Shown here: positions 21,932 to 63,329 of the stretch, in pieces | Layout of the letters: the number at the start of each line of letters is the position of its first letter | Numbering within the stretch: position 1 is the first letter of the stretch | Assembly: GCA_008638375.1 (NCBI GenBank) | Contig: CM018052.1 | Span: 27,300,045 to 27,364,044, forward strand | Direction of reading: 5' to 3' | DNA from: Nyssa sinensis | Lineage: Eukaryota > Streptophyta > Magnoliopsida > Cornales > Nyssaceae | DNA length: 64,000 nucleotides | Notes under the pieces: model-generated | What the model saw: only the letters and a program-made list of their open reading frames with translations | The model's database searches: none | What the model was told of the DNA's origin: nothing | Program-made: the position numbers and the translations under genes

Positions 21932-22942
21932 AAGAAGAAGAAGAAGAAGAAGAAAAAGAAAAAGAAGAAGGAGGAAGAAAGGTTGTATGCAGCCCTAACC
22001 GACCCTAGATGCATTAGAGAGGAGTTAGAAGCAAACTAAGGAGAGAGAAGACATCACTACTGAGGTAAAATTATAAACCCAACTAATTTTCTCTCTCTAA
22101 AAGTTGAGTGTGTATATAAGTTGTTTTAAGATTTCTGTATGCACGAACTAGTATATCTAGTTAAAAAATGAAGTAGGACCAGCCTAAGACAACCCCCGAA
22201 CCTTACTCCCGAACACAACCACCACTGATAACCATTTTTAAGGTCGGTCTGAACTTAGTTATTAGAAACAGATTTTTATACCTTGAGCCTTAAACTAGGT
22301 GATATGGAGTTTAAATTGCTACAAAAACTAGGCCAAATAACTCAGGAATAAGCCTAAAAACTTAAGTTGCAGGTTCGGGTTTTGAAACCCAACCTCACCA
22401 ACTCACACCAAAACTTGATTTTAAGGGTGGGGGATTGAAACGCATGATGAGGTGACCACAGTGGAAGAAACCCCGTGAGTTTTGAGCCAAAAACGAACGT
22501 GTAAGGATGATTTGCAGGTTCAATTATCCAACCTTGGACCGAACTTTTGAGCTAGGTTTAAGGCTTGCAATGAATGCCAAACCCTTCCCTTGTGTTCTAG
22601 AAAAGATTTGGGGTCAAAAGCAGGGAGATTAGGTGATTTAAAATTCATGAAAATGGAAGAAATAAAACTTAGGAATTAGGGCTACCATGAGGGTGAGTTG
22701 GGGAAGGAGATAAACAGTAACCAAATCGAATTTGAGTCGAATAGGGTTCAGTTCGGGACCCGACCCATCACACGTTAGGGGTTTAAGTGGGACGACACCA
22801 TATTGGGTTTAAGTGTGAAAGATTTCAGGCTATTTGTACGAGGTTTGGATCTGATTTATAAGCGTTGTTCCAATTCATGATAACTCGTCCCTGATTTAAT
22901 AGGTTGTCCATTGTTTGGCTTACAGAAATCAGGAAAAATAAA

Positions 22943-23165
22943 GGGGAGCCGAAGCTCCCCAAAATCGAACCCTTGACCCTAAAATCAAGCCCAAGCCCAC
23001 TGAGCCACCACCGCTTATGGTGAAGGATGTCCACATAAATAATATATATTATAGAAAAGAATTTATTAAGAAAAAAATCAAAAAGGGGCGCAGCCCCCTA
23101 GGGATTCGAACGAAGGATCAGTAGTGTGGAAGTGGCGCGTGTAACCAGTTGGATAGGTACCACCC
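22943..23165 (-). repeat. Two tRNA-like (Pol III A/B box) segments inside the LTR
   Basis: On the minus strand, segment 1 (23020-22943) has TGGCTCAGTGG (A box, 22997-23007) and GGGTTCGATTTT (B box, near 22965). Segment 2 (23165-23080) has TATCCAACTGG (A box, 23145-23155) and GTTCGAATCC (B box, near 23105), followed by a GGGGGCTGCGCCCC hairpin. In the 3' LTR copy the second B box is the exact GGTTCGAATCC (38110-38120). Spacing fits tRNA genes or SINE heads. They are not intact tRNAs. Confidence 0.6.
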
Positions 23166-23181
23166 GTACTAACTAGTTTAC

Positions 23182-23227
<46 letters not shown>

Positions 23228-23309
23228 AAAATAGTATTAAATTAACTTAATTAAATTGAATATAGCAAAATGGCCCGAGTCCAAATTAAACAAGTTATTA
23301 GTGTATTTT

Positions 23310-23550
23310 GACTATCTTGGACCTTCTAAGACCAATGGTGAGGTCCGTTTTGCGAGACGGGGTCCCAAAAAATAAAAGACCCATAAAAGTACAAAATAAC
23401 AGTTTTGCCCTTTTTAGCCAGATGTCCAAAGTGAGTTCCGCGAAAGCGTAAATCGACTTTCTTCGACATTCCGGACTCAATGATAGAGTTTATTTTAGTA
23501 AAATAGAAACTCATGATATAAAAGCATAAAATTTGATGAATAGCATAATT
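23310..23550 (+). promoter_or_regulatory. Shared LTR cassette and GATGAATAGCAT motif, element A 5' LTR
   Basis: Two diverged units, GACCTTCTAAGACCAATGG (about 23319) and ATTCCGGACTCAATGATAG (about 23468), joined by TTTTGCCCTTTTTAGCC. They are followed by GATATAAAAGCATAAAATT and GATGAATAGCAT (23534-23545). The TATA-like run just upstream of the motif suggests the LTR core promoter, which is inference. The same order recurs in the C LTRs and, inverted, in the solo LTR, the gag-only element and E. Confidence 0.6.
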
Positions 23551-24727
23551 CAAGTAGAAATAGACTGAGTTCTGTTTCATGATTTTAGGAACACCGAAAG
23601 GCAAGGAGAAGGCAGTCTAGACCTTCCAGTTAGAGACAGAAAAAGGGATTAAGTTCTCATCGATCCATTCAGCTACACGACGAACGCGACTCCCTAGGGT
23701 TAAGTAAAACCCATCTAGGTATGATATTTTGCTAAGTAAGGAATAGGATTAAGTTTAGGAGTAATTTCCATGTTGATTGTTTATATGCTTATGTGTTCCT
23801 TGTTACCCTTTGGGAGTTTGGTAAAGTGGTAAACGTGAATCATGACTATGTGTATATTCCATGTGTTGGTACAATATGTGAATTTATGTTCTTTGAGAAT
23901 TGTTAAGATTATGAATATATAACTTGAGCATGTGTTTAAATTGATTGTGAATGTCATGCATACATGTGGAAGGAGTTGTTTGATTCAAATGTTATTATTG
24001 CTTTAAATGTAATGCATTATTTAAAGCATGCTTCATTGAGATTGAATTGTTGCATGGTGAAATCAGAGCATATTGGCATGGTGTAATTCCTTGAAACATA
24101 GTGTGGGCTGAGCACTTGGTGCTGTGCATTATGAGGGTGTAGATCCTGTGGTGAAAAGCCCAAAATTGGCCATTGGTACTCATGCCAACGGGAACATACC
24201 ATGAAGTGAGACATACGATTGGTACTCATGCCAGTAGGGAAGGACCGTAAAGTGAGACATAGGTATGGCATAGAGTTTGCGTGGGTGCGTCACGCATATT
24301 GATAATGCATTGTGTTGATGTATAGATGATTTGAATGGCATGTAGATATAAATGTACACTTGCACATGCCACGCCTTAATTTTGTTCCTTGCATTATCAT
24401 TGTATCATACCAGCAGTTGAGTTGACCCATTCGTGGGATATCATATTACAATAACGCTCTTGGTACATGAGACTTGATGAAGTCTTGAAGAAAGGAAGGG
24501 GAATGAACTTGGAAGTATAGTTGGCCTGAGGGCATATTTTTGTACTGTAAGGGTTTAAGCCCAAATGACATGTAGGATATATTTATTGAATATGACTTGC
24601 ATGTATATTTGTATGTTGAAGGAAATGAATGTATGTCCAATTGAATCTATTAAATTGCCTTGTTATTTCTTTTTCTTATTTCGTTTCACTCACCCCCGAG
24701 TTCGTGGAAATTCGGGGCGTGACAACG

Positions 24728-25117: not shown

Positions 25118-25615
25118 ATGCCACCGAGGAGAGCTCTTGCGAGAGCTGGACCACCCAGGTAAGGTAGGCCTAAGGCCGCTACCCTACCTCGGCTTGGCAA
25201 GCCTAGAGCTGCTGCTCCTGCGCATAGCACAGCGAAGGAGGCTGTTGCTCCTGCACCTGCCCCAGCGGAGGAGGTTGTTGCTCCTGCTTCTGCTCTTGCA
25301 CCTGCCCTTGCAGAGGAGGTGGAGCAAACCATTGGCGCCAGAGACATAGCGACCACTATACAGGAGTGTCTTCGAGCCATGCAGGAGACCTGGACTACTG
25401 GTGGTGAGACTAGGGATACCTTCGTGATGAAGGTGTTTTAGAGGATGAGACCTCCTACATTTGCGGGGCAGCTAGATCTTTTAGTTGTTGAGGAGTGGTT
25501 GGATTAGATCACCAAGATTTAAGACTCCTAGGGGATTGTTGAGCCACACCTGAGGATTAGATATGCCACATTCCAGTTTACTAAGTTGGCTAGTTAGTGG
25601 TGGAGAGTAGCTGCT
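25118..25615 (+). pseudogene. Element A gag, 5' part, interrupted
   Basis: Starts MPPRRALARAGPPR, a common start for Ty3/gypsy gag, then meets a stop at codon 15. It has an Ala/Pro/Glu-rich repeat region (APAPAPAEEVVAP) and the beginning of the capsid-like domain, RMRPPTFAGQLDLL, with more stops (for example before RMRPP and after EEWLD). The frame is cut at 25615 by the nested element, and its 3' part continues in the same frame at 35195. Confidence 0.82.
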
Positions 25616-27394
25616 TGTCACGACCCGAAACCCACCTTGTGCGGATCCCGAATCGTGACCGCCGCCCTTCGACCGAGGCCTTAGGGCAAGGCGAAACATA
25701 AGCAACGGTATCGAATAGATGTGCGACACGTGGTTGCAGAAGCGTGAAAAACTTTTTCTTTTTCTTTTCTTATTTAAAAAAAATTTGCACATCCGTCCGG
25801 TACTGCTGCTCTTTGCATTGCGGTACTCATGATCATACATTCAGAGCGTAAATACATTCTAAAGTTTTATACACAATACATATTCGTTTGTTCTTCAAAA
25901 CTTAACTACATAATATACACAACCAAAAATGACTAACTACTAGTCCGAGTGCTTTTCCACATCCGCTAGTCCTGCAATAACTTCCTACGCCCTTTCACAA
26001 AATGAGCATAGATTATACACTTTCTTGATCAAAGTCAGAGCTTGCCTCCTGACACCTTAAAGGGGGGGTCCGAACAAAGTCCGGGTAAGCTAATCTAAGC
26101 TTGTGAGTAATTCGGGCATTTGTCATGGGGTTTCAACTGGCAGTGGTTTAGCACATGAAAGTTTATAAAATACTCACTACCAATTGTTCGTATGCTCGGA
26201 ATACAGAATATATGCATTTTTCATAAAGATAGCTTTGAACATTTAAAGTATTCAAGCTAAATACACATTTCTTCAATAGAGTATATGCATTTTAAAACAT
26301 GCATAATCGAAAGAGGTAAAACCTACTTTCATGTTTAATAGTATGATTTCAAATGATAGCTTAAAAACATTTATAGTTAATAAGCTAAATACACATTTCT
26401 TCTATGGAATCTATGCATTTCAAAGCATATAAACGTACATAATACAATGGGGGTAAAAACCTGCTTCCATTTTAAAAGTGTTTGTCATCTTTTCTCTTTG
26501 GTTAAGTGGAATCTGTTTCGAACCAGACTCCCATCTTACTGCAATGCTACAATGGGAGATATCTCACTGCCTGGGGAATTAGATCCTTCTACCGGGCATT
26601 TACTGTTGAATCCCGAAGGATTTCAACCTTCATGGGGTGCTTATGCACATTTGGATGCCTTTTTAACGAGCATCAAAATACTGGTTAAACATATGCATTT
26701 ATAGCATTTGAAATATGACTTCGTCAACATATGCATTTATAGCATTTAAAATATGACTTCTTCAATAGATGCTTTATAAGTATTTAATATATGACTTCTG
26801 AACAAGAACTTCAGAATATGTAGACATGTCAACTACTTTTAGAGAAGACAGTGATAGAAATTATTCATTGAGCATGTCATATCAAGATTTATAAGAGCAA
26901 AATGAATCACAAGATATTTGAATTTAATATTCAATACTTCAACTCTTTTGGAAGTTAAAACTTCTTCAAATCCGTGGAGTTAAATCTCCACTTCAAATGC
27001 AGGGTTACTCACCTTATACTCCAAGCTCGGCGTTTACTGCGACGCCTTCCTTTTTCCTTTTGTAGTTCCTAGAACAATTCATAAATAACAGTCTCATTAA
27101 CTTCACATCTACTGCAATAACACCTATTGATGCTACTTAGTTCGTATTAGATCCTAACACGATTTCATAATTTCATATGTACTTAATTGACTCGTATTTT
27201 TAACCTATAACACAATTTAATGTGTTAGGAATTAACTTCATTTTAGCTATACTCTCCTGGTAGCTCCATTAACTTTAAGTTAATTTATTTACTTCATATG
27301 TTCTCGTGTCACGTCTTCTCCTATGTCCTTTCAAATGTGTACCGTACCATTTAGTTGGTACTTCGAGCAGTGTACTAATTTATAGCCACTGGAC

Positions 27395-27780
27395 TTATGC
27401 TATTCATCAAATTTTATGTCTTTTTATTAGACATTTCTTTTTGGTCGAATAGACCCTACCATTGAGTCCGGAACATTGGAGAAAGTCAGTTTAGGCTTTC
27501 TTAAAATTTAATTCCGACTTTTGTATGTCAAAGGGCAAAATAGTCATTTACCCAATTACGTGCCGTATTTTTCCGTACTTCGTTTCATGTTGTGGATCTC
27601 ACCATTGGACTCAGAAGGTCCGAAATAGTAAGAACACACTAATAACTTGTTACTTGCGGACAAGGGGTATTTTGGTCATTTTATCCCTTTACATATCTTT
27701 AATTTTCGGAGTTCCATTTCGTAAAACGGACCCCGCCATTGGATTTAGAATGTCCAAAATAGTCAGAATCCAATATTGGT
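27395..27780 (-). promoter_or_regulatory. Shared LTR cassette in the gag-only element 3' LTR
   Basis: GCTATTCATC (complement of GATGAATAGC) at 27399-27408, followed by three diverged units with cores CCATTGAGTCCGGAACATT (27459), CCATTGGACTCAGAAGG (27602) and CCATTGGATTTAGAATG (27736). Spacing is about 143 and 134 bp. Linkers are AAAATAGTCATTT and TTTTGGTCATTTTATCCC. Confidence 0.7.
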
Positions 27781-28020
27781 TTACTTTATTTGGACTTCAT
27801 TTACTCTATTTATGGCCTAAGGGTATTTTTGGAATTTCTTTTATTTAAATATTATTAAGTTATTATTAATTAAATTTCAGCCGGGCCATAGTAGAATTTC
27901 CCAAAAGTTTTGGGGTCAAATTTCAATTTTGAACTCTTCCGGTTTGAACCAGTGGGTTCAGTTTCAATTTAACTGAACCGGTCCGGTTCTCCTTGAACCA
28001 ATCCGGTTCAACACCTCATG

Positions 28021-28041
28021 CTGACGTCATCATGACGTCAG
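28021..28041. promoter_or_regulatory. Double TGACGTCA palindrome (bZIP-type site) in LTR
   Basis: TGACGTCATCATGACGTCA within a 21-bp perfect palindrome. Two TGACG cores stand in tandem, close to the as-1/TGA-factor arrangement. It is about 1.5 kb from the LTR start in element sense, and about 75 bp from a GACACGTGTC G-box (28116-28125). An identical palindrome is in the LTR of E, whose surroundings have diverged. Confidence 0.6.
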
Positions 28042-29563
28042 CCCTGATATTTTAAATCTTTACAACATAACCAAAACGTCACCGTTCTCTTAATGCGGTG
28101 GACTTGCCCTTTCTTGACACGTGTCCCGAGTTAACTCGGGTGACTCGATTCAACAGCGAGTCGACCCGTCGTCTTCCTCCTTCGTTACCCACTGTAACCC
28201 TAATTTCCGAAGCTTGAAAGCTTCATTTTCGAGCTAATCTATTCACCTAAATTCTTCTGTTTTTACACTCATCCATCTCTAGAACATTTCCCAAGAGATT
28301 GGCATTCATCTAAGGTTTTAAAACCAGTTCATGAGTTCGGTTTAACTTTTGATAGCCGAACCTGTAACTACACGTTAAATCCTCATTCCATCACTATTTT
28401 TGATGAGGTTTGGCCCTGTGTGATCCTTATGACATGGGGATTACATACCCATTCTCAAAACTGAGTTTAAAAGTGTAAAACCGAATTTGGGTTCCACGAC
28501 TTAAACCTGCAACTAATATTTTAGGTTTCATTTCTTGAGTTTTTGGATCGCGGTCTACCATTTTTAAGACCTTGGGATGATCTAGAACAGGTCCTAATAC
28601 TCGGATTTGGATTTGGTTTCTCTTATTTCAGACCTGCACCAGAATTTTCTGATTATTGTTCCAACTGAAACTTGAATTTTCTCAGTCGATTCTTGATCAT
28701 TTCTTGTAATTTCTTTTGTAGTTTACAGCTTATATTATGCAGAATAAACCCCTACTATTACATGCTTTAAATTTGTACACAATTTAAACAATTTCCAAAC
28801 GAAATCTTACCTGTTCAAGTTGCTTACAGTTTCCCACTTTTCTCCTACTTCAGTTCCTATCCTTCAATTTCTTGCTACTGCTTGCACACGTCTCCTCTTC
28901 CATTACAAGTTCTCTTTTCCTTTTATTTCCCCTTCATTTACTCATGCAATCGGTGGCCTTGCCACCTGTTGGTATCCGAATTTGCATGGCACACAGCCAT
29001 GGCTGCCACCTCCCTTCTCATCATTATTTTTCACAAGCAGCTCACATGGGAGAGGCATGGAGAGCAGTGCCCACCGTCTCCCTCTCTTCTCAATTGTATT
29101 ATATTAAATACAATTTCATTCTTTTGTTTGTAAGTATATATATATATATATATATATATATTACACCCAACTTTATATTCCTATATAAATAGGTATATAT
29201 ATATATATATATGTCTTATATAATCATATTATATATATAATATGTCTTTATATGAATTTGAATAGTCACTTATTAATTTAACATGCATATTTATGTATGC
29301 ATATACATCAATATCTATATTTCACAATATAAATATATTTATATATTTATATATCCATGTTCATACTTTGATAATCTACCCGACGTAGTAATCTATTTTT
29401 GTCACGTCTCAATTCGAGGTTGGCTTCCAAAATGAAAGTGTACAGTCTCAATGGGATTAATAGAAACAAGTTGGTGATTGAAAACCAACCTTGTTACTTC
29501 AGGTTTCAATCACTAGTTAATATTTAGTGACTTGCTAATTCTTCATCGGGTCGGGGTGTTACA

Positions 29564-29602
29564 TCCTTCCCTCCTTAAAAGAGTTTTGTCCTCAAAACTC
29601 AA
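29564..29602 (-). other. Polypurine tract and preceding stem-loop of the gag-only element
   Basis: On the minus strand GAGTTTTGAGGACAAAACTC forms a 7-bp stem. It is followed by TTTTAAGGAGGGAAGGA, the polypurine tract that primes plus-strand synthesis, directly at the 3' LTR. The same arrangement stands at 62358-62396 in E. Confidence 0.75.
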
Positions 29603-29726
29603 ATATTTTTGTTTCGGGAGTTTCAGTCTCCTCCCATTGCTTCTATCTATAGTATTCATGCATCTAATAGTGGAATTTAAATAGCAATTTATTCATGATA
29701 CTGGAATTGAATAGTAGATAGTGTAC

Positions 29727-30809
29727 CTATGGGCTTTTCGAAGGTTGTGCAACATCAGCAAATATATTATACACCCGTCCAGACATTGTAGGTTCTTTAC
29801 CCTTTCCGGTCTTTCCCGTAGTCACAGCCTGCGCATGGGGCGTAGCTGATGAAGCTACTCCCGTAGGTTCCTTGATAGTTGAGTCCCATTTTGGACAATT
29901 CTTAACGATATGCCCAATCTGCCCACACTTGTAGCAGCCCCCAGTATCACGCCAACAGGGTGCATGATGTTTCTTTTGACAGGTAGGGCACACTGGAATC
30001 TCCCCCGACTTTTGACTAGTGGTTCCCTTTTTGTTAACCGTAGTCACACTTTTAGCTCCTGGCTTTTTCATTGACTGGGGATTGGGGCCAGTCTTATTCT
30101 TGTCCCTCTTTTGAAGTAAGGCCATCCCGGCCCTCTCGAAGATTTTAGCACGCTCCACCACTGCATTATATGTGGGGAGTTCGAATGGTTCAAGTCGATA
30201 CTTAATGCTATCCTTAAGGCCAGCTTCAAACTTCCTGGCTTTTAAGTCTTCAGTGTTAATCACATGAGGCGCAAAACGGCTTAGATTCATAAATTTAGCT
30301 TCATATTCTGCTACCGTCATTGCTTCTTGAGTCAGAGTTGCAAACTCTGCTATCTTCTGGTTTTTAAGTGACCTTGGGAAATATTTGTTATAGAATACTT
30401 CTAGGAATCTTGTCCAAGTCATTGGTGGCTCTCTTTCCTTTTCCAGAAGCCACCAGTCGTGCGCTGCATCTTTAAAAGTAAAAGCAGCGTAAGAAACTTT
30501 TTGTTCTTCTGAACATGGCATGACTGTAAATATTCGTTCCATTTCCTTAACCCATGTCTCTGCGTCAATAGTGGCATCCAACCCATCGAATCTAGGAGGT
30601 TTAAAGCCTTGAAATGTTTTGTAACCCGATGTATCTACCACCTCAACAAGTTGTCCTGGATTATTTGGTATTCCAGGGTTCTGTACCAGTTGCGGTGCTC
30701 GGATTTGGGCTTGGATGTCAATCATGTTACGGGCCATTGCTTCCAAAAGATGTCCAACTCGGTCCAGTCTGTCATCAGGATTCCCTTCATTCCTTCTCGT
30801 ATTCACCAT
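29727..30809 (-). CDS. gag: Gag polyprotein of the gag-only element, intact
   Basis: 360 residues without stops. It begins MVNTRRNEG. Residues about 70-250 are the retrotransposon gag (capsid) domain: PPRFDGLDATIDAETWVKEM, FTFKDAAHDWWLLEKE, FLEVFYNKYFPRSLKNQK, TVAEYEAKFMNLSRFAPHV, then KARKFEAGL. A basic linker follows (about 230-270), then CPTCQKKHHAPC and one zinc knuckle, CYKCGQIGHIVKNCP (about 293-307, CX2CX4HX4C). It would coat the element RNA in virus-like particles. The end GRVYNIFADVAQPSKSP resembles the linker ahead of protease in autonomous relatives, so the frame stops just where protease would begin. The layout suggests the Tekay/Del-like chromovirus group, but that is inference. 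Confidence 0.93.
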   Translation of the reverse strand: MVNTRRNEGNPDDRLDRVGHLLEAMARNMIDIQAQIRAPQLVQNPGIPNNPGQLVEVVDTSGYKTFQGFKPPRFDGLDATIDAETWVKEMERIFTVMPCSEEQKVSYAAFTFKDAAHDWWLLEKEREPPMTWTRFLEVFYNKYFPRSLKNQKIAEFATLTQEAMTVAEYEAKFMNLSRFAPHVINTEDLKARKFEAGLKDSIKYRLEPFELPTYNAVVERAKIFERAGMALLQKRDKNKTGPNPQSMKKPGAKSVTTVNKKGTTSQKSGEIPVCPTCQKKHHAPCWRDTGGCYKCGQIGHIVKNCPKWDSTIKEPTGVASSATPHAQAVTTGKTGKGKEPTMSGRVYNIFADVAQPSKSP

Positions 30810-30853
30810 CGTTGCTTTATTTCTTCTCTTTGTTATGTTTCCCCCATGTAACT

Positions 30854-31054
30854 ACGGGTCCCATACCCCGTCTTTATCCCATGTTACGTACCACCCATAT
30901 CTACCTTATGTACTACGGGTCCCATACCCCGCCTTCATTCCATATCACACATGTCCCATATCTACCTTATGTACTGCGGGTCCCATACCCCGCCTTCATT
31001 CCATATCAACTATTTCACATTTCTACGTCCCATAACGCGAGTCCCATACCTCGC
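30854..31054 (-). repeat. 61-bp tandem array of stem-loops in the 5' leader
   Basis: Four copies starting at 30854, 30915, 30976 and 31037, exactly 61 bp apart, between gag start and primer site. Each carries an 18-mer of the form GCGGG TCCCATAC CCCGC (plus strand), a 5-bp stem with constant 8-base loop. Stem pairs vary in a compensatory way: ACGGG/CCCGT in the first copy and GCGAG/CTCGC in the last. The second copy has one mismatch at the stem base. On the element RNA the loop reads GUAUGGGA. A leader location suggests a packaging or dimerisation role, which is inference. Confidence 0.85.
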
Positions 31055-31228
31055 CTTCATTTCACATCACATTCTTCACATCTTAGGTAGTCTAGGATCT
31101 ACCTAACTCATAGTTCTGTCCCTAATTCTTCCATAATCACTAAGTTGATTAAGTCAACCTAGAGCTAATCTTAGTTATTTCTTAACCTCAATTATGATTT
31201 GATCTTTCCCGAAGATCATTAACCTAGA

Positions 31229-31240
31229 GCTCTGATACCA
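31229..31240 (-). other. Primer binding site of the gag-only element
   Basis: Minus-strand TGGTATCAGAGC, three bases from the 5' LTR end at 31244, complementary to initiator Met tRNA. Confidence 0.92.
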
Positions 31241-31243
31241 CTC

Positions 31244-34200
31244 TGTCACGACCCGAAACCCACCTTGTGCGGATCCCGAATCGTGACCGCCGCCCTTCGA
31301 CCGAGGCCTTAGGGCAAGGCGAAACATAAGCAACGGTATCGAATAGATGTGCGACACGTGGTTGCGGAAGCGTGAAAAACTTTTTCTTTTTCTTTTCTTA
31401 TTTAAAAAAAATTTGCACATCCGTCCGGTACTGTCGCTCTTTGCATTGCGGTACTCATGATCATACATTCAGAGCGTAAATACATTCTAAAGTTTTATAC
31501 ACAATACATATTCGTTTGTTCTTCAAAACTTAACTACATAATATACACAACCAAAAACGACTAACTACTAGTCCGAGTGCTTTTCCACATCCGCTAGTCC
31601 TGCAATAACTTCCTACGCCCTTTCACAAAATGAGCATAGATTATACACTTTCTTGATCAAAGTCAGAGCTTGCCTCCTGACACCTGAAAGGGGGGGTCCG
31701 AACAAAGTCCGGGTAAGCTAATCTAAGCTTGTGAGTAATTCGGGCATTTGTCATGGGGTTTCAACTGGCAGTGGTTTAGCACATGAAAGTTTATAAAATA
31801 CTCACTACCAATTGTTCGTATGCTCGGAATACAGAATATATGCATTCTTCATAAAGATAGCTTTGAACATTTAAAGTATTCAAGCTAAATACACATTTCT
31901 TCAATAGAGTATATGCATTTTAAAACATGCATAATCGAAAGAGGTAAAACCTACTTTCATGTTTAATAGTATGATTTCAAATGATAGCTTAAAAACATTT
32001 ATAGTTAATAAGCTAAATACACATTTCTTCTATGGAATCTATGCATTTCAAAGCATATAAACGTACATAATACAATGGGGGTAAAAACCTGCTTCCATTT
32101 TAAAAGTGTTTGTCATCTTTTCTCTTTGGTTAAGTGGAATCTGTTTCGAACCAGACTCCCATCTTACTGCAATGCTACAATGGGAGATATCTCACTGCCT
32201 GGGGAATTAGATCCTTCTACCGGGCATTTACTGTTGAATCCCGAAGGATTTCAACCTTCATGGGGTGCTTATGCACATTTGGATGCCTTTTTAACGAGCA
32301 TCAAAATACTGGTTAAACATATGCATTTATAGCATTTGAAATATGACTTCGTCAACATATGCATTTATAGCATTTAAAATATGACTTCTTCAATAGATGC
32401 TTTATAAGTATTTAATATATGACTTCTGAACAAGAACTTCAGAATATGTAGACATGTCAACTACTTTTAGAGAAGACAGTGATAGAAATTATTCATTGAG
32501 CATGTCATATCAAGATTTATAAGAGCAAAATGAATCACAAGATATTTGAATTTAATATTCAATACTTCAACTCTTTTGGAAGTTAAAACTTCTTCAAATC
32601 CGTGGAGTTAAATCTCCACTTCAAATGCAGGGTTACTCACCTTATACTCCAAGCTCGGCGTTTACTGCGACGCCTTCCTTTTTCCTTTTGTAGTTCCTAG
32701 AACAATTCATAAATAACAGTCTCATTAACTTCACATCTACTGCAATAACACCTATTGATGCTACTTAGTTCGTATTAGATCCTAACACGATTTCATAATT
32801 TCATATGTACTTAATTGACTCGTATTTTTAACCTATAACACAATTTAATGTGTTAGGAATTAACTTCATTTTAGCTATACTCTCCTGGTAGCTCCATTAA
32901 CTTTAAGTTAATTTATTTACTTCATATGTTCTCGTGTCACGTCTTCTCCTATGTCCTTTCAAATGTGTACCGTACCATTTAGTTGGTACTTCGAGCAGTG
33001 TACTAATTTATAGCCACTGGACTTATGCTATTCATCAAATTTTATGTCTTTTTATTAGACATTTCTTTTTGGTCGAATAGACCCTACCATTGAGTCCGGA
33101 ACATTGGAGAAAGTCAGTTTAGGCTTTCTTAAAATTTAATTCCGACTTTTGTATGTCAAAGGGCAAAATAGTCATTTACCCAATTACGTGCCGTATTTTT
33201 CCGTACTTCGTTTCATGTTGTGGATCTCACCATTGGACTCAGAAGGTCCGAAATAGTAAGAACACACTAATAACTTGTTACTTGCGGACAAGGGGTATTT
33301 TGGTCATTTTATCCCTTTACATATCTTTAATTTTCGGAGTTCCATTTCGTAAAACGGACCCCGCCATTGGATTTAGAATGTCCAAAATAGTCAGAATCCA
33401 ATATTGGTTTACTTTATTTGGACTTCATTTACTCTATTTATGGCCTAAGGGTATTTTTGGAATTTCTTTTATTTAAATATTATTAAGTTATTATTAATTA
33501 AATTTCAGCCGGGCCATAGTAGAATTTCCCAAAAGTTTTGGGGTCAAATTTCAATTTTGAACTCTTCCGGTTTGAACCAGTGGGTTCAGTTTCAATTTAA
33601 CTGAACCGGTCCGGTTCTCCTTGAACCAATCCGGTTCAACACCTCATGCTGACGTCATCATGACGTCAGCCCTGATATTTTAAATCTTTACAACATAACC
33701 AAAACGTCACCGTTCTCTTAATGCGGTGGACTTGCCCTTTCTTGACACGTGTCCCGAGTTAACTCGGGTGACTCGATTCAACAGCGAGTCGACCCGTCGT
33801 CTTCCTCCTTCGTTACCCACTGTAACCCTAATTTTCGAAGCTTGAAAGCTTCATTTTCGAGCTAATCTATTCACCTAAATTCTTCTGTTTTTACACTCAT
33901 CCATCTCTAGAACATTTCCCAAGAGATTGGCATTCATCTAAGGTTTTAAAACCAGTTCATGAGTTCGGTTTAACTTTTGATAGCCGAACCTGTAACTACA
34001 CGTTAAATCCTCATTCCATCACTATTTTTGATGAGGTTTGGCCCTGTGTGATCCTTATGACATGGGGATTACATACCCATTCTCAAAACTGAGTTTAAAA
34101 GTGTAAAACCGAATTTGGGTTCCACGACTTAAACCTGCAACTAATATTTTAGGTTTCATTTCTTGAGTTTTTGGATCGCGGTCTACCATTTTTAAGACCT

Positions 34201-34761
34201 TGGGATGATCTAGAACAGGTCCTAATACTCGGATTTGGATTTGGTTTCTCTTATTTCAGACCTGCACCAGAATTTTCTGATTATTGTTCCAACTGAAACT
34301 TGAATTTTCTCAGTCGATTCTTGATCATTTCTTGTAATTTCTTTTGTAGTTTACAGCTTATATTATGCAGAATAAACCCCTACTATTACATGCTTTAAAT
34401 TTGTACACAATTTAAACAATTTCCAAACGAAATCTTACCTGTTCAAGTTGCTTACAGTTTCCCACTTTTCTCCTACTTCAGTTCCTATCCTTCAATTTCT
34501 TGCTACTGCTTGCACACGTCTCCTCTTCCATTACAAGTTCTCTTTTCCTTTTATTTCCCCTTCATTTACTCATGCAATCGGTGGCCTTGCCACCTGTTGG
34601 TATCCGAATTTGCATGGCACACAGCCATGGCTGCCACCTCCCTTCTCATCATTATTTTTCACAAGCAGCTCACATGGGAGAGGCATGGAGAGCAGTGCCC
34701 ACCGTCTCCCTCTCTTCTCAATTGTATTATATTAAATACAATTTCATTCTTTTGTTTGTAA

Positions 34762-34795
<34 letters not shown>

Positions 34796-35189
34796 CACCC
34801 AACTTTATATTCCTATATAAATAGGTATATATATATATGTCTTATATAATCATATTATATATATAATATGTCTTTATATGAATTTGAATAGTCACTTATT
34901 AATTTAACATGCATATTTATGTATGCATATACATCAATATCTATATTTCACAATATAAATATATTTATATATTTATATATCCATGTTCATACTTTGATAA
35001 TCTACCCGACGTAGTAATCTATTTTTGTCACGTCTCAATTCGAGGTTGGCTTCCAAAATGAAAGTGTACAGTCTCAATGGGATTAATAGAAACAAGTTGG
35101 TGATTGAAAACCAACCTTGTTACTTCAGGTTTCAATCACTAGTTAATATTTAGTGACTTGCTAATTCTTCATCGGGTCGGGGTGTTACA
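31244..35189 (-). repeat. 5' LTR of the gag-only element
   Basis: Near-identical to 25616-29563 (offset 5628). It has the same cassette (33023-33410), TGACGTCA palindrome (33649-33669), G-box (33744-33753) and TA runs. Differences noted by eye include GCAGAAG/GCGGAAG, CTGCTGC/CTGTCGC, AAAAATGAC/AAAAACGAC and TTTCCGAAGC/TTTTCGAAGC. Confidence 0.92.
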
Positions 35190-35194
35190 CTGCT

Positions 35195-35703
35195 GATCGG
35201 ATAGACATGTTCGGTGAGGGATGGGATGCCTTTTTGGCCATGTTCAATGACCACTATTTTCCAGAGACTGCCAGGATAGGGTTTATGGGCGAGTTTGGGG
35301 CACTCCTCCAGAGAGACATGACAGTAACTCAGTATGAGTCCCGATTTACTACATTGAGGAGATTTGCCCCACATGTTATGCTGGAAGAGCGACTGAGGAT
35401 CCTTCATTTTGTCAAGGGGTTGAAGACCACAATCAGGGACAGACTGGCGGGCCACATTATTGAGACATATGATGAGGCAGTGATCAGGGCCACCAAAGTT
35501 GAGAGGGAGTTGGCCGACCGTAGAGGGATTAGAGAGTCCCGGACCCAAAGTAGGACTACCTCATCACAGATCCATATACCTGCCCGGACCTATACAGAGG
35601 GGAGACCATCGAAGAAGTCCCAAGCTTTTGCTTCTTCTGCACAGACACCACTGAGACCCTTTCAATTTTTAACCCCCCGACCTGTTATGCCCACTTCTTA
35701 CTA
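35195..35703 (+). pseudogene. Element A gag, 3' part of capsid domain
   Basis: Continues the gag frame of 25118-25615 once the nested element and one CTGCT copy are removed. It carries AFLAMFNDHYFPETARIGF, TVTQYESRFTTLRRFAPHV, LHFVKGLKTTIRDRL and YDEAVIRATKVERELADRR, the second half of the gag domain, then a Ser/Pro-rich tail. It ends at a stop at 35701-35703. This portion is open and well preserved. Confidence 0.86.
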
Positions 35704-35731
35704 AGGGGGAGTACCCTAGGGACCTCTGACT

Positions 35732-36789: not shown

Positions 36790-37856
36790 AGCTGAGAGAG
36801 CTGAAGGAGCAGTTGACTGATTTACAAGGTAAGGGTTTTATTCGTCCTAGTACTTCTCCGTGGGGTGCTTCAGTACTATTTGTGAAGAAGAAGGATGGGA
36901 CGTTACGTTTGTGTATGGACTATAGGAGGCTGAACCGGGTCACTATCAAGAACAAGTTCCTGTTACCGAGGATAGATGACTTATTTGATCAGTTTAGGGC
37001 TTCAAGATGTTTCTTGAAGATTGATCTTCGGTCTGGGTATCATCAGTTGAGAGTACGGGAGGAGGATATAGCGAAGACAGCTTTTCGTACTCGATATGGT
37101 CATTATGAGTTTGTAATTATGCCATTCGGTGTGACAAATGCCCCGGCGACATTCATGGACTTGATGCATCACATTTTTAGTCCTTATTTAGATGAGTTTG
37201 TTGTGATATTTGTTGATGATATCTTGATTTATTCACCTTCTGAGGATGAGCATGCCTTTCACTTACGGACTATGTTACAGATCTTGAGGGAGCACCGTTT
37301 ATTTGCTAAGTTCTCGAAGTGTGAGTTTTGGCTTCAAGAGGTGCAGTTTCTAGGACATGTTGTGTCAAGCAGTGAGGTATCTGTAGATCCTTCTAAGATT
37401 GACGCTGTTATGAGTTGGGAGAGGTCGAAGAGTGTGTTTGAGATTCGGAGTTTCTTCGGATTGGCAGAATACTACTATCGGCTTGTAAAGGGGTTTTCTT
37501 GTGTTACCGCACTGATGACTCGTCTGACGCGCAAGGGCATTAGATTTAAGTGGACAGAAGCCTGTGAGCAGTCGTTTCGGGAGATGAAGAGGAGGCTGAC
37601 TTCAGCACCTGTCTTGATTATACCTGAGAAAGGTATGTGTTATGCAGTGTATTGTGATGCTTCACGAGAAGGGCTAGGCTGTGTATTGATGCAGGAGGGT
37701 AGAGTGGTAGCCTATGGTTCTCGTCAGTTGAAAAGTCATGAGTAGAACTACCCCACACATGATTTACAGTTAGCTACCGTCATCTTTGCACTTAAGAGTT
37801 GGCAACACTATTTATATGGGGAGAGATTCGAGGTGTTCTTAGATCACAAGAGCCTT
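36790..37856 (+). pseudogene. Element A reverse transcriptase and truncated RNase H
   Basis: RT palm and fingers are intact in one long frame (36813-37745): [57 protein letters not shown], the catalytic FVDDIL (37209-37226), FSKCEFW and FLGHVVS. RNase H starts with [15 protein letters not shown] and stops at KSHE (37743-37745). The coding sequence continues beyond that stop as [16 protein letters not shown] and ends at 37856, where LTR sequence follows. The rest of RNase H and all of integrase are deleted. Confidence 0.9.
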
Positions 37857-38187
37857 ATAAGCGTTGTTCCAATTTAGGATAATTTGTCCCTGATTTAATA
37901 GGTTGTCCACTGTTTGGCTCACAGAAATCAGGAAAAATAAAAGGGAGCGGAAGCTCTCCAAAATCGAACCCTTGACCCTTGACCTTAAAATCAAGCCCAA
38001 GCCCACTGAGCCACCACCACTTATGGTGAAGGATGTCCACATAAATAATATATATTATAGAAAATAATTTATTAAGAAAAAAATCAAAAAGGGGCGCAGC
38101 CCCCCCAGGGATTCGAACCAAGGATCAGTAGTGTGGAAGTGGCACGTGTAACTAGTTGGACAGGTACCCCCCATACTAACCAGTTTA

Positions 38188-38232
<45 letters not shown>

Positions 38233-39751
38233 AAAACAATATTAAATTAATTGAATTAAATTAAATATAGCGAAATGGCCTGAAGTCCAAATTAAACAAG
38301 TTATTAGTGTATTTTGACTATCTTGGACCTTCTAAGACCAATGATGAGGTCCGTGTTGCTAGACGGGGTCTCAAAAAATAAAAGACCTGTAAAAGTGCAA
38401 AATGAACGTTTTACCCCTTTTAGCCAAATGTTCAAATTGAGTTATGCGAAAACGTAAACCGACTTTCTTCGACATACCGGACTCAATGGTAAAGTTTATT
38501 TTAGTAAAATAGAAACTCATGATATAGAAGCATAAAATTTGATGAATAACGTAATTCAAGTAGAAATAGACTAAGTTGTGCTTCATGATTTTAGGAACAC
38601 CGAAAGGAAAGAAGAAGGCAATCTAGACCTTCTAGTTGGAGACAGAAAAAAGGACTAAGTTCTCCTCTACCGGTTCGACTGCACGACGAACGTGACTCCC
38701 GAGGGTTGAGGAAAACCCATCTAGGTATGATATTTTGTTAAGTAAGGAATATGATTAAGTTTAGGAGTAATTTCCATGTTGATTGTTTATATGATTATGT
38801 GTTCCTTATTACCCTTTGGGAGTTTGGTAAAGTGGTAAACTTGAATCATGACTATGTGTATATTCCATGTGTTGGTACAATATGTGAATTTATGTTCTTT
38901 GAGAATTGTTAAGATTGTGAACATATAACTTGATGATGTGTTTAAATTGATTGTGAATGACATGCATACATGTAGAAGAAGTAGTGTGATTCAAATGTTA
39001 TTATTGCTTTAAATGTAATGCATTATTTAAAGCATGCTTCATGTGCGGATAAAATGCTTCATTGAGATCGCATTATTGCATGGTGAAATCAAAGCATGTT
39101 GGCATGGTGTAATTCCTTGAAACATAGTGTGGGTTGAGCACTTGGTGCTGTGCACTATGAGGGTATAGATCCTGTGGTGAAAAACTCAAAATTTGCCATT
39201 GGTACTCATGCCAACGGGGACATACCGTGAAGTGAGACATATAATTGGTACTTATGCCAGCGGGGAAGGATGGTAAAGTGAGACATGGGTGTGGGATAGA
39301 GTTTGCATGGGTGCGTCACGCATATTGATAATGCATTGTGTTGATGTATGGATGATTTGAACGGCATGGAGATATAAATATACACTTGCACATGCCACAC
39401 CATAATTTTGTTCTTTGCATTAGCATTGTATCATACCAGCAGTTGAGCTGACCCATTCGTGGGATATCATTTTACAGATGACGCTCCTGGTACATGAGAC
39501 TTGATGAAGTCTTGAAGAAAGGAGGGGGAATGAACTTGGAAGTATATTTGGCCTTAGGGCATATTTTTGAACTGTAAGGGCTTAAACCCAAATGCCATGT
39601 AGGATATATTTATTGAATGTGACTCGCATGTATATATGTATGTTGAAGGAAATGAATGTATGTCCAGTTGAATCTATTAAATTTCCTTTTTATTTCTTTT
39701 TCTTATTTCGTTTCACTTACCCCCAAGTTCGTGGAAATTCGGGGCGTGACA
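37857..39751 (+). repeat. 3' LTR of element A, missing its first about 1.64 kb
   Basis: Matches 22858-24724 of the 5' LTR, starting inside at TATAAGCGTTGTTCC. It keeps the tRNA-like segments (37940-38165), a TA run (38191-38226), the shared cassette (38330-38555), the paired GGTACT(C/T)ATGCCA repeat (39199-39262) and the end GGGGCGTGACA. Many scattered differences from the 5' LTR show A is much older than the nested gag-only element. Confidence 0.88.
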
Positions 39752-41449
39752 ATCTGAGTATTGAAGAAGAAATATTTTTTCTTGATTCTTGAGGGTAAGA
39801 TCAGTGGGATTATGTTGGATACTCCCTCGGAGATAGACAATAAGATCTCTAGTAATAGATGTTCTCCTTGATACATCACTATAGAACTTCTGGTTGAAGT
39901 CCCTTAGGGTGAGCTTTAAAAGTTTAAGCTTTCTTGAGAGTCTAAACATATGACTACCTTCAATATAGATTGACCAGTTTTGCTCTAGAGAGGGCCTAGA
40001 ATTAGAGTGATTCATCTAGTAATTATAGAACTTGAAAGGTTTTGTACCTTGTTTCTTGTACGGAACAATGGTTATGATGCTTGAACTATGACTTGAAGGC
40101 CTAGGGGGCATAGTGCACCTCTACATCAGGGAAAAAGATCTTTCATTGGTGGTTGATAAGAGTTTTATCGATCCTGCTTTGGATGTTATCATCTCCCATT
40201 CTTTTATTATCCCAAGTATATAGGTTTCTAGTGGTTCTTAGTTCCTCAACCCTTATCTCATAGATACAAGTATTAAAATCTTCAAAAGCTGCTGTGTTTA
40301 TACTTGAGTCTCCCGTCCTTTCACTTTGAAGCCTTATAAAATTAAAACCACCTACAATAATCTAGGGGGTATTGTCAACAAGGCTGGCCCAGTCTCTCAT
40401 GGATCTCCAAAAAGCTTTCCTTCTTTCATGGTCATTGTGAACATAAATGGGGGTGGAAAAAAAGATTTCATACACGACTTTAATTCAATCTGGAAGAGAC
40501 AATTTTGGTCAGTGAAGTCCAAAGTAGTCACTTTCATAGCTCTTTTGTCCTAGGCAATCCAAATATGCCCTACACCATTAGAGAGGGTATTGTAACTATT
40601 TTCCCAATCACCAAAACAATTATGAAAAATAGAAGAAAAATTGTTGCTTCTAACTTTTGTATCACCTAGAAAAACTAAAGATAATTGATGGATCTAACAA
40701 AAAAATATAAATCCTTTTTGCTTAAGGGGATCATTAAGTCCCGTTATGTTCCGGCATGCTAACTGGATCATTTAACAGTTTTTGTAAGTATCTCCCCCAT
40801 CTCTGCCCTGATTGGCTAATCCATTAGATCCTCATTTATTTTTTTTGTTTTTTTTGTTCTTTTTACTTCCATTACCTGTCTATTGGTGGCAGGGGGAGGT
40901 TGTAGCAATAGCCTTCCCAAATTTTGCTTTAAGAGCCTTGGTATTCTCTTTAATATCTCATATTTCAAGAAGTTTGTCAAAAGAGTTAGAAATAGGGATA
41001 ATTACAATAGGTTGGATCCTATTTTGGGAATCAATTATCTCTGTTTATTTAGTTTCAACAATGGTAGGGTTACCATTTACAAGGTTACCCAATTGGGTGG
41101 AGGTCATAGTTGCACCTATTTCCATTATTGGAGGTTGGGGGTTAGTTTCAAAGTTGTTGGTAGTAGCTATTCCTGCAAAGAGGTTGAGTGACATGGGGTT
41201 TAAAAGAGCCTTCTCCTATTTGAGCTTTATCTTTTGTGGTCCTCTGTTTGACATAGGGGCATCTTTGTGGAGTGACTAAATACTTTACATTGAGAACAAA
41301 GGAAGGGCTTCCATTTATAGGAGATGCTTTGCAAGATCTGATTACCTACCTTTATAATCAATAATGGGAATCTTTGTAAGGAGATCTTTTTGGGCATTGA
41401 CCACCACACATACTCGAGCGTAAGAAATCCTAGTTTTGTTGGCAGTTAA
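39752..41449 (-). pseudogene. L1-type LINE (minus strand), ORF1 end, endonuclease and pre-RT region
   Basis: Upstream half of the LINE whose remainder is at 18612-21216. From right to left: a zinc-knuckle-like ORF1 end, ISYKWKPFLCSQCKVFSHS (about 41300). Next is the endonuclease region (40330-40560) with VTTLDFTDQNCLFQIEL and a frame reading LLTIPPRLL. Then comes the pre-RT linker SHMFRLSRKLKLLKLTLRDF (39713-40015 frame). The protein frame runs into the A insertion at 39756 and resumes at 21216. It is cut at 41449 by the C array. Stops and frameshifts are frequent. Confidence 0.85.
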
Positions 41450-43567
41450 TGTAATGCCCTGACCCGGGTTAACACACATACCGAGGTAGACCGGGTCGGG
41501 TAGTGTATTATCAGCCGTAACCCAAGCTGTTTAAAGCTCTACATTATTTTATCGAAGAAGACGACCGGAATATCGAAGGGTGTATCGGGTCAAGACGGAA
41601 CCGGGTTTGGGTCTGATCGGGTCGGGACCCGACCGAAAATAAAATCGGGCAGTGATACTATGTCGTTTTGTATTTGAATTTAAATGGTATTTGGGTTGTT
41701 TGGTTACAGAGATAGGAAATGCGAAATTGGGTTTGGGGTTATCCAGACCGTGGATACGATAACGGATAAGATATTGAATTCTGGTTCTTGAGATTTAACT
41801 GAACCGATTGGTTCAGTGACCTAATAGACTGGTTTAGTGTTTCTGACTATGAACCCATTGGTTTAAACCGAGACTTAGAGAAATTTCATTTTGACCCCAG
41901 AAAGTTTAGGAAATTTCACTAAGGCCCAACTAGAGAAAATCAATAAAATATTATTTTTACAATAATAACCCTAATTCAAATATAGGTCAAACGAAGTCCA
42001 AATGAGGCAAGTGAATAGTTAATTTTTATTATTTCGACCATTCCAGATTCAACCGTAGAGTCCGATTTGTGAAAAGAGGTCTCGAAAAACGAGAAACTGT
42101 GAAAGTGCAAATTGACCATTTTGCCCTTTTTAGTACAGAAGTCCAAATTGAATTCCACGACAGCCTAAACCGACTTTCTTCGACGTTCCAGACTTAATGG
42201 TAGAGCCTAATTTTGGTAAAAGAGGAACTAATAGTAAAGAGGCATAAAATATGATGAATAGCATAACTTATGAAAAGGTAAGCTGAGATATACTATCTAT
42301 TGATGAATAGGGATTTTAAAGAGGAGGGAACAGTGACTTGATTTCATTGTGAAAGAACGGAAACGGTTTAAGAGGTAAGTAAATGTCTGATCTCTGCATG
42401 TGTTACATTCCTAGCCATGTCAACAGTCTTTCTGATATTATCTATTGTACTCCATACATGCCAGAATATTTATCGAGTCCACATTGATATTGCTCTATCT
42501 TGTGAAAAGTATTTATTGACTGTTATATATCTTGATCATAATTTCTGTACATTCTGTACATAGGCCTCAAGGGGCAAGACTTATGATCTCAGCAGCCCAG
42601 TTTACATTGGCCTGTTAAGGCAACAGTTTCTTTTCGCTGCTGAGATAGTGTTGTTGCATTACTGTTTATTGGATTCAACATGATCTTGATATATTATATT
42701 GTAGCCGGATTTGTGCTCAGTCACAAACTCCATCTGATACTTACTAGACCTATGGGTCGAGAAAACGAAAATCAAAAGTGGCAATTAAAATGGCAGCTAA
42801 AGTGTATTCTGCGAGGGGAGTACTGAACCGACGGGTTAGTGCTTGGCTGAGAGATCGAGGAAAAGAGAATAAAATGAATTAAGGGGTATGTCGAGCCCCA
42901 AGTTAAAGTGCATCCACATTTGTTGTTATCAGTATCTATTATTGATTTTCATAGCTTGATCATATTATTTCATTATGAATGATCATGAGATTTCACAGCT
43001 TTTTATTGAGAGTGTACAATTTATGCTTGAGACAGTTCATGACTGTAACAGTATAATATTGTCAGCAGAACATATTTCATTTCCTTATCATTTTGACTAC
43101 TATCATTTGATATTGAGCTATATATTCATTGACTGGCTAGCATCTTTATATACACATATGCACATGGCTGAGTAAAGGAGTATTACTTACTGAGTTTTCA
43201 TAGCTCATCAGATACTACATAACATTTAACTTTCAGGCACAGATATCGAGGATGGACAATAGAGTCTGATAGCTAGGAAGTGGACATTTGCTTTTGAAGC
43301 TGCAGTGTAATACTTAGTACAGACAGTCTTATAGCTCTCTCATGTTATCCACGTCTTGGGGATGAACAGTTGTATTAAGAAATTTTATATTCCACATTTT
43401 GTAACATTATATATCACATGCAGCTTTTATTTATTTTCTTTCGCACTTTAGCTGTTACATGTTAGTAGCATTGATTGTGTAGCAAGTTGAGACCCTTAGT
43501 TCGACAAGTAGCGTCGGATCGGGTGCGCAACACGAGATCCGTATAGGGTGGGTCTAAGGTCTTGACA
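41450..43567 (+). repeat. Family C LTR 1, with a 1.25 kb internal deletion
   Basis: Starts TGTAATGCCCTGACCCGG and ends GGTCTTGACA. After TTATTTTATC it jumps to GAAGAAGACGACCGG. In LTR2 these points are about 1.26 kb apart (45110 and 46372) and share TATC, so a deletion through 4-bp microhomology is likely. It keeps the shared cassette at 42030-42266. Confidence 0.88.
42030..42270 (+). promoter_or_regulatory. Shared LTR cassette, family C LTR 1
   Basis: CATTCCAGATTCAACCG, linker CATTTTGCCCTTTTTAG, then TTTCTTCGACGTTCCAGAC and TTAATGGTAGAGCC, then GCATAAAATATGATGAATAG. The same block is at 46840-47070 and 51600-51840 in LTRs 2 and 3. Confidence 0.7.
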
Positions 43568-43570
43568 ACT

Positions 43571-43582
43571 TGGTATCAGAGC
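43571..43582 (+). other. Primer binding site, family C interior 1
   Basis: TGGTATCAGAGC, three bases after LTR1, matching initiator Met tRNA. In interior 2 (48377-48388) it is TGGTATTAGAGC, one base changed. Confidence 0.9.
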
Positions 43583-43652
43583 ATCCTAAGGTACTAGTAT
43601 TACAATGTCCAAGTAGAGTCAGTAGATAGAAACTGACATGCGATATTAGACT

Positions 43653-43687
<35 letters not shown>

Positions 43688-43711
43688 CTGATCTCTAACC
43701 AATTACAGAAA

Positions 43712-44743
43712 ATGGTGCATACTCGTACTACCACACCATTAGATGAGGCTAACGCTCACATAGCACGACTAGAGCGACTGGTAGAGAGACTTATTCAGAA
43801 TGCGTCTCAGAACCAGGTGGGTTCCAGTACTCTCGCTAGATTAGAACAACAGGCAACACCTGAAATACACAAAGTGCGTCAGGAGAACGAGAGGGGTCAG
43901 GCCCATCTTTACAAGAAGTTCCAAGCACTACGACCCTTTATGTTTGATGGCACCAGGGGCCCCACTTCAGCAGAAGAGTGGAGGCTCGAGATGGAAAGAA
44001 TCTTTGAAATCATGGGTTGTACCGAGGTACAAAAGGTAGCCTTTGCTACTTTCACTTTTTGAGGGATAGCTCATGAGTGGTGGCTATTGGAGAAGGCCAG
44101 AGAGCCTCAAATGACATGGGATTGATTCGTTGTGGTCTTCAACCGCAAGTATTTCCCCAGGGAAGCCAGAGATTAGAGAGTTGCAGAATTCTTTATTTTA
44201 CAGCAAGGAAACTCAACGGTGGAGGAATATGAGACCAGATTTACACAGTTGGTTAGATTTTCTCCTACTGTTTTAGAGGACGAGCATGAAAGGGACCATA
44301 AGTTTAAGAGCAGCCCGAGGTGGAACATTAGGGACAAGGTTAAACCCCTGTGGTTAGCCACTTACGATGACGTGGTAAGCACAGCCAAACTTATTGAGTA
44401 AAGTGGAGAAGAACATGTTAAGAGGAAGGCAAGTCAGATGTCCAGAGAGGGTCAGAGTAGGACCCAGGGATCCTCATTTTCTAAGCCCAGAGCTGAATCA
44501 TAGAGCGTAGAGCCCAACCAAAAGAGGGACGATTCTCACACTGAGGACGTAGCTAGACGTCTGACCTGTCAGAAAGTCCATAAAGGACGATGCCTTCGGA
44601 ATACTGATTTTTGCTACTTTTGTGGGAAAAGTGGACGTGGACACTTCGCGAGAGAGTGTCCCCAGATCAGCGAAACCGTGGATAGCACCACACTAGCCGT
44701 CACAGGTATTCTACCAGTTATATTAACTATACATATATTTTGA
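43712..44743 (+). pseudogene. Family C gag, copy 1 (stops, zinc knuckle kept)
   Basis: Starts MVHTRTTTPLDEANAHIARL, with a leucine-rich coiled-coil-like N-terminus. The gag domain follows: FDGTRGPTSAEEWRLEMERI, ATFTF, stop, GIAHEWWLLEK, VVFNRKYFPRE, VEEYETRFTQLVRF. Then comes CQKVHKGRC and the knuckle CYFCGKSGRGHFARECP (44613 onward). That knuckle is CX2CX6HX4C, two residues longer than usual. Stops occur near 44060, 44122, 44174, 44399 and 44500. ATG at 43712 is chosen over 43682 because MV(H/N)TR also begins the intact gag at 30809. Confidence 0.86.
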
Positions 44744-45010
44744 GTTTTAGACTCTTTACCGAGTACATGCTTAAGAGTGGAAATTTCAAAATGGGATTCA
44801 CGAGAAGGTTTCGAAAGGGCACTGAAAATTTTAGGAAAATAGAAAAAATGATCTGATATGACAGTAAAACTTGATTCTCAGTAGAAAAATTTTATCAAGT
44901 TAAATGTAAACACCTGTTCGAGATTATAAACAATGTTAGCAAGATCACAGAAATCCCTAGAGTTAGGAATGCTAAGTTTGGGCACAGACTTATTTTTAAG
45001 GGGGCAGGAA
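44744..45010 (+). other. Family C interior 3' region with polypurine tract
   Basis: Non-coding after gag. It ends TTTTTAAGGGGGCAGGAA directly before LTR2, a polypurine tract. No trace of protease or pol is present. Confidence 0.7.
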
Positions 45011-48373: not shown

Positions 48374-48534
48374 GCTTGGTATTAGAGCATTTTAGGTAAC
48401 ATAGTGCTTCATGGGAGATAGACTAAGGTACTAGTATTACAATGTCCAAGTAGAGTCAGTAAATAGAAACTGACATGCGATATTAGACTCTTATATATAT
48501 ATATATGAAACTGATCTCTAACCAATTGCAGAAA

Positions 48535-63326: not shown

Positions 63327-63329
63327 TGT

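Follow-up and report, generated by a model that had tools for sequence, protein, structure and literature searches.

A tandemly repeated leader hairpin in gag-only and gag-less LTR elements of Nyssa sinensis, a candidate Gag recognition site

The window, by which we mean the whole 64,000-nucleotide stretch analysed here, contains on its minus strand a complete LTR element with gag only and LTRs of 3.9 kb (element A, 25616-35189). Its 5' LTR (31244-35189, minus strand) shows 99.6% identity with its 3' LTR (25616-29563, minus strand) when the pair is compared, and a 5-bp target duplication, CTGCT, lies at 25611-25615 and 35190-35194. The primer binding site TGGTATCAGAGC (31229-31240, minus strand) is presumably of the tRNA-iMet type, and the polypurine tract (29564-29576, minus strand) was assigned from position and composition. 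The gag gene (29727-30809, minus strand) encodes 360 aa with Retrotrans_gag, Ty3_capsid and one CCHC zinc knuckle. Because the region between the LTRs is only 1.68 kb long, there is no room for pol, and gag is the only sense ORF of at least 150 aa in this internal region, overlapped by one antisense ORF of 158 aa. Element A is itself nested in a Ty3/gypsy-type element (22856-24725 and 37855-39752; 24728; 36813-37745), in which a primer site, part of a gag (35207-35704) and reverse transcriptase are still visible and whose LTRs have 91% mutual identity.

In the presumed transcribed leader of A, as placed from the sequence, there are four 18-nt hairpins with an exact 61-nt period, the minus strand being the sense strand: A1, GCGAG-GTATGGGA-CTCGC (31037-31054); A2, GCGGG-GTATGGGA-CCCGC (30976-30993); A3, GCGGG-GTATGGGA-CCCGT, with a basal G-U pair (30915-30932); and A4, ACGGG-GTATGGGA-CCCGT (30854-30871), all on the minus strand. 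The sense-strand loop GTATGGGA is present in 4/4 of these units and 5/5 pairs are formed in 4/4; since the window units were found by their exact loop, part of the loop identity seen in the window follows from the method. With one loop mismatch allowed, the leader of A has two extra half-unit sites, one with 4 pairs at 31035 and one with 2 pairs at 30961. The initial annotation had described four units 61 nt apart with an invariant loop, placed between the primer site and gag, whose stems conserve their pairing and not their sequence. This description proved accurate for A, where the array (30854-31054) lies between 31229-31240 and 29727-30809 and all four stems pair, and it lacked the fourth stem variant, GCGGG/CCCGT, as well as a second array, of seven units, elsewhere in the window.

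The second array belongs to element B, a gag-less element on the minus strand that runs from 58064 to beyond 64000. Its 3' LTR occupies 58064-62357 (minus strand) and its 5' LTR begins at 63330 and extends past the window end; where the two LTRs overlap within the window, over 671 bp, their identity is 100%, and B would total about 9.6 kb, assuming a full-length 5' LTR. The 972-bp internal region (62358-63329, minus strand) has no gag match, and the longest listed ORF overlapping it has 71 aa. Downstream of the primer binding site (63315-63326, minus strand), the seven hairpins of B share their loop with A and span 62728-63143 on the minus strand (63126-63143, 63065-63082, 63004-63021, 62943-62960, 62876-62893, 62814-62831 and 62728-62745); a one-mismatch loop search of B gave no further units. 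Identity between A and B is about 73% across the leader and LTR end. The window also holds a third element (41550-52944), seemingly of the form LTR-internal-LTR-internal-LTR, in which two internal stretches are set between three copies of the LTR. A short gag ORF of this element lies at 48505-49215, and no exact-loop unit occurs in its leader, which is about 120 nt long. A tandem repeat of 3.2 copies of a 134-bp unit lies at 55664-56095.

Upstream of the array, the leaders of A and B and those of loci L094-L173 have three further hairpins, SL1 to SL3, whose arms are complementary in both A and B. In A these are SL1, with the loop CGGGA (31200-31218), SL2 (31140-31162) and SL3 (31083-31106), all on the minus strand, and the complementary arms of SL3 lie in a stretch that is paired otherwise in the whole-leader minimum-energy fold; the arms of SL1, SL2 and SL3 of B are at 63285-63303, 63229-63252 and 63173-63196 on the minus strand. 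When the SL1 stems of A and B are put into register by hand, four of their seven pairs have changes on both sides, and the SL1 loop exposes GGG, as CGGGA in A and as GGG in most B-type leaders. A palindrome, CCUAGG, is present in the SL3 loops of B-type leaders and absent from SL3 of A. Whole leaders folded better than shuffles, with z -2.96 for A and z -6.26 for B (20 shuffles), but the antisense of the A leader (z -4.17) folded at least as well as the sense, so fold energy cannot tell the strand. The 5-bp stem is present in the single-unit minimum-energy structures of 11/11 window units, with energies only mildly better than those of shuffles (z -1.1 to -3.3).

All 11 window units, which were located by loop and not by stem, form 5/5 pairs, and two-sided changes occur among them in three of the five stem pairs. 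The covariation in the register of a 5-bp stem and an 8-nt loop was matched by 0/500 shuffles, whereas an alternative bulged register (with GGGU/ACCC) brought no covariation gain (250/500 shuffles) and was rejected. Across all column pairs of the 11 units, 6/646 variable pairs were fully paired with a double change, and three of those are in the stem; only 1/32 flank columns is invariant among these units, while the loop columns are invariant through the way the units were selected. A two-unit pattern occurred 8 times in the window and 0 times in 100 shuffles, and Rfam gave 0 matches above the gathering score in the window. In public collections, the two-unit pattern matched 0 viral contigs and 6 bacterial contigs; the latter had five pairs in 0/26 loop matches, appeared by eye to be coding sequence or other short tandem repeats, most of them rich in GGNATGGG words, and were discarded. 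A single-hairpin pattern matched 79 viral contigs once each, with five pairs in 8/79, and these were read as chance rather than as relatives.

The array is not peculiar to the window, which lies at C10:27300045-27364044 of the host assembly. The 13-mer GGTATGGGACCCG occurs 2608 times (1340 + 1268) in the 1.0-Gb host genome, against 2 + 0 for the reversed control, and 40 loci of contig C1 were taken from its first 100 listed places as a motif-picked set. A second set of 40 loci, blind to the array, was picked via the primer site and SL2, the next conserved hairpin; this pattern has 177 genome matches against 0 for its control, and the loci were chosen by eye for varied leaders among 100 places listed of the 177. 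At least one exact-loop unit was present in 39/40 array-blind loci, giving 162 units of which 138 have 5/5 pairs, and a covariance model built from the window units found 174 units in the same loci. Arrays comprise 1-10 hairpins per leader, mostly 61 nt apart; in the C1 and window arrays, 61 nt was the commonest spacing (78 intervals), followed by 58 nt (13). Among 82 leaders (80 loci and two in the window), 70 have a primer site together with two or more exact-loop units, and these contain 321 exact-loop units plus 23 with one or two loop changes, mostly G to A. In some leaders (L107, L112 and L120) the primer site is present twice, at a spacing of about 60 nt, and the two copies enclose a short A-rich stretch; in L120 one of the copies is altered. 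Array-type leaders also occur in rows, four about 5.2 kb apart at C9:35204791-35220585 and three about 5.5 kb apart at C7:23014145-23025177, as if elements shared LTRs in tandem chains.

The pattern of conservation within the units differs between loop and stem. Between leaders of 75-85% identity, 18.4% of stem positions and 20.2% of flank positions differ, against 1.5% of positions of the loop GUAUGGGA, an apparent rate that is about halved because an exact match located the loop in one leader of each pair. The stems differ as much as the flanks yet stay paired, which indicates that the stems drift while their complementarity is kept. Non-commonest stem states shared with the nearest relative were paired in 145/149 cases and private ones in 56/105, a split from which 9/70 leaders were dropped because their nearest relative is less than 85% identical. 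The private changes are largely G-U or A-C cells, that is, C-to-T or G-to-A, and by this comparison they look like decay of old DNA, while inherited changes keep the pair.

Kinship among units can mimic covariation. We compared the units with tree nulls, in which substitutions were placed anew on a tree. This tree comprised the 273 distinct sequences among 343 units and is itself weak, as it was built from 53-nt units. At the level of the helix, 1279/1365 cells were paired against null means of 1045 and 1134, a value reached by 0/500 replicates under both models, and the paired share of non-commonest cells was 0.71 against 0.44 and 0.48 (reached by 3 and 0 of 500). Pair by pair, no stem pair was significant: the top of 867 pairs was a stem pair with E 0.75, a second stem pair came ninth with E 13.5, and the other three were far from notable. 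The count of double changes was unexceptional under the tree nulls (reached by 134 and 34 of 500), and by manual count the fixed paired changes amount to only about six states. The earlier expectation of covariation beyond phylogeny is thus borne out for the helix as a whole (0/500) and fails for individual pairs (best E 0.75); on these alignments, a helix is supported, and this falls short of proven pairwise covariation.

The age of the copies bears on how well the pairing is kept. By their LTR ends, 14/22 elements were datable and 8 were not. In ten young copies (LTR ends at least 96.8% identical), 46/47 exact-loop hairpins are fully paired, compared with 8/11 in four older copies and 23/38 in eight undated ones (manual tally), and from these sequences it appears that the arrays of older copies decay. 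The young copies have 16 G-U cells and one A-C/C-A cell, and 11 of the 16 G-U cells are at position 1. This excess of G-U suggests selection on the sense strand, but the argument depends on position 1 and on the young copies: outside position 1, the young copies have 5 G-U against 1 A-C, and the whole array-blind set, all copies included, has 13 G-U against 18 A-C. The loss of the excess there is expected if most copies are decaying.

Gag follows the array directly in 40 of 81 loci and is absent from 19, and 22 loci end too early to score. The initial annotation proposed that the units had been multiplied to compete for Gag, but the counts do not bear this out: gag-less leaders, a class that here includes L095 with its gag remnant, are not significantly richer in units (mean 4.9, n=19) than gag-bearing ones (mean 4.25, n=40; p = 0.29). 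With one reverse transcriptase query, no match was found inside the element in 20 ten-kb loci, the matches in L094, L100 and L112 lying before the primer site or past the 3' LTR. The same approach (one query) gave 0/8 for gag-bearing loci in a 0.5-kb piece located about 2.6 kb downstream of the primer site, where 6/8 have LTR-like sequence. The sampled carriers therefore look non-autonomous, and no autonomous array-bearing relative was found among the 28 loci probed with one reverse transcriptase query. From their sequence, the group carrying the array appears to be one of non-autonomous plant LTR elements of Ty3/gypsy type.

The ten young copies comprise four with gag (A, L107, L109 and L112) and six without it. 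The gag ORF is full-length in 4/4 of the young gag-bearing copies, and pairwise dN/dS is 0.05-0.11, and dS exceeds 1.4 in every pair but that of L107 and L112, which are closely related; the low dN/dS and intact ORFs indicate that the Gag of these copies is under purifying selection. Broken gag genes were found in two older copies (L102 and L106) and in two undated ones (L101 and L104). At the protein level, 44 Gag relatives were found, in Camellia, Rhododendron and others. One young carrier, the gag-less copy L096 (8055-9681 of its locus), is only 1.63 kb long, with 439-bp LTRs that are 98% identical and a CCTGA duplication on both sides. By tblastn it has no gag or reverse transcriptase match. 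The LTRs of L096 resemble those of A and B at the ends only, and between them lie a primer site, a leader with four hairpins and a polypurine tract. That such a recent and minimal copy keeps the array argues, as one case, for a cis-acting replication role, and such a role is supported by the recent gag-less copies in general (6/10 young, one of them TRIM-sized), which retain the array.

A non-autonomous element must itself carry the sequences that act in cis: the signals for transcription, the primer site, the polypurine tract, the ends of the LTRs and a signal for entry into Gag particles. The LARD-like and TRIM-sized carriers hold little beyond LTR ends, primer site, leader and polypurine tract. 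Because the array is conserved beyond the other cis needs in all three kinds of carrier, and because an unpaired purine loop in the MMTV leader is bound by Gag and SL1 here likewise exposes GGG, we prefer Gag recognition among the possible functions. With moderate confidence, we regard the array as a cis-acting signal in the sense RNA and, probably, as a Gag recognition (packaging) site in multiple copies. The hairpin structure is well supported by the sequence comparisons, and a packaging role is inferred. Three features expected of a packaging signal are present in the array: a position in the presumed transcribed leader, a paired stem-loop (at the helix level) and retention in trans-dependent elements. 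Each unit in the sense RNA would fold into a 5-bp stem displaying the nearly invariant 8-nt loop GUAUGGGA; the loops would act as repeated docking sites for Gag, with their unpaired G's bound by the CCHC zinc knuckle, and the array would tag the RNA for assembly into particles, the number of units possibly setting the avidity. Gag-bearing members would provide the selected Gag, and gag-less members would use the same address. The wider proposal, that a multivalent Gag-recognition array is shared by a community of plant elements in which LARD-like and TRIM-sized copies parasitise the Gag of gag-only ones, is put forward more tentatively, as a possibility somewhat short of an even chance.

The young gag-less copies also weaken an alternative based on translation, in which upstream AUGs borne by the loops hold back gag translation and so free the RNA for replication, as these copies keep the array with no gag downstream to regulate. 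Every loop does contain an AUG that is flanked by G at both -3 and +4, a short upstream ORF starts in strong context from 11/11 window units, and the A leader has 22 AUGs before gag. However, the upstream peptides of the 11 units vary between 6 and 26 aa and differ in sequence past MG, the loop is also conserved at sites outside the constraint of AUG context, and the stems change yet keep pairing, and we therefore consider translation control unlikely.

The array could also act as DNA. In Drosophila, the gypsy insulator consists of repeated DNA-binding sites between the primer site and gag, and the present array, which has the same position and repetition, might by analogy be a protein-binding enhancer or insulator that lies in the leader incidentally; its 18-bp sites are evenly spaced and have complementary arms. 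It differs from the gypsy insulator in that pairing survives stem change: stem sequence changes at the flank rate while pairing stays and the loop is conserved. Moreover, one-sided changes in young copies are G-U and not A-C (16:1), two classes that a DNA site would not distinguish, and a DNA-level array is in our view improbable. Other functions of the hairpins in RNA, such as nuclear export, stability, genome dimerisation or an aid to reverse transcription, would fit the retention and pairing evidence equally, and we assign to them together only a small probability. Dimerisation could make use of the SL3 palindrome of B-type leaders, a possible dimer site, but this palindrome is missing from A. 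The array loop was rejected as a kissing-dimer or dimer initiation site, GUAUGGGA not being self-complementary by inspection. Neutral tandem duplication, in which unit copies and paired changes reflect shared ancestry and methylated-C decay, agrees with the failed pairwise test under the phylogenetic null and with private changes mostly of the C-to-T or G-to-A type, but is very improbable given the helix-level null (0/500), the difference between loop (1.5%) and flank (20%), and full pairing in 46/47 units of young copies against 8/11 in old and 23/38 in undated ones.

Gag recognition by the array would bear on an open problem, namely how another element's proteins choose the RNA of non-autonomous plant elements. 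The array is a short, repeated RNA motif that lends itself to testing, and it is retained along a natural series of carriers with less and less content. If the reading is true, it would give plant elements of the Ty3/gypsy type a concrete candidate for a packaging signal. Among the known systems that come close is MMTV, in which an unpaired purine loop in the leader (SL4) is bound by Gag and GGAG and AG are important, according to the text available of PMC8096270. Both are leader stem-loops with unpaired purines; here, however, one hairpin is repeated 1-10 times in a plant LTR element and is a candidate Gag site only. Ty1 and Ty3 mini-elements helped in trans need only terminal RNA parts, the leader included, and a 2016 review states that sequences important for their packaging were not precisely defined; its available sections name no hairpin array in this cis-acting leader region (PMC4974528). 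Likewise, the accessible part of a 2025 plant review names no packaging sequence (PMC12786077), and searches among open-licence papers, at the level of titles and the beginnings of abstracts, brought up no report of a packaging signal, or of a hairpin repeated in the leader, for LTR elements of plants.

The carriers themselves fall into kinds that have been named before. By the definitions of TR-GAG, LARD and TRIM elements, as given in the portion of PMC6022998 at hand, A qualifies as a TR-GAG, with an LTR pair, primer site, polypurine tract and gag as its sole domain; B qualifies as a LARD, with no coding domain and at least 2 kb (its full length being inferred, as the 5' LTR is cut by the window end); and L096 qualifies as a TRIM, with no coding domain and under 2 kb. 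A differs in its repeated leader hairpin, which that portion does not mention for TR-GAGs, and its LTRs are 3.9 kb long. Conserved RNA structure has been stated for LARD and TRIM elements (PMC7215508, in the text available), but the structure in the TRIM Cassandra is formed by the LTRs, whereas here a tandem array in the leader is common to gag-only, LARD-like and TRIM-sized elements. As far as these sources extend, the kinds of element are already known, and the repeated leader hairpin array is what appears to be new.
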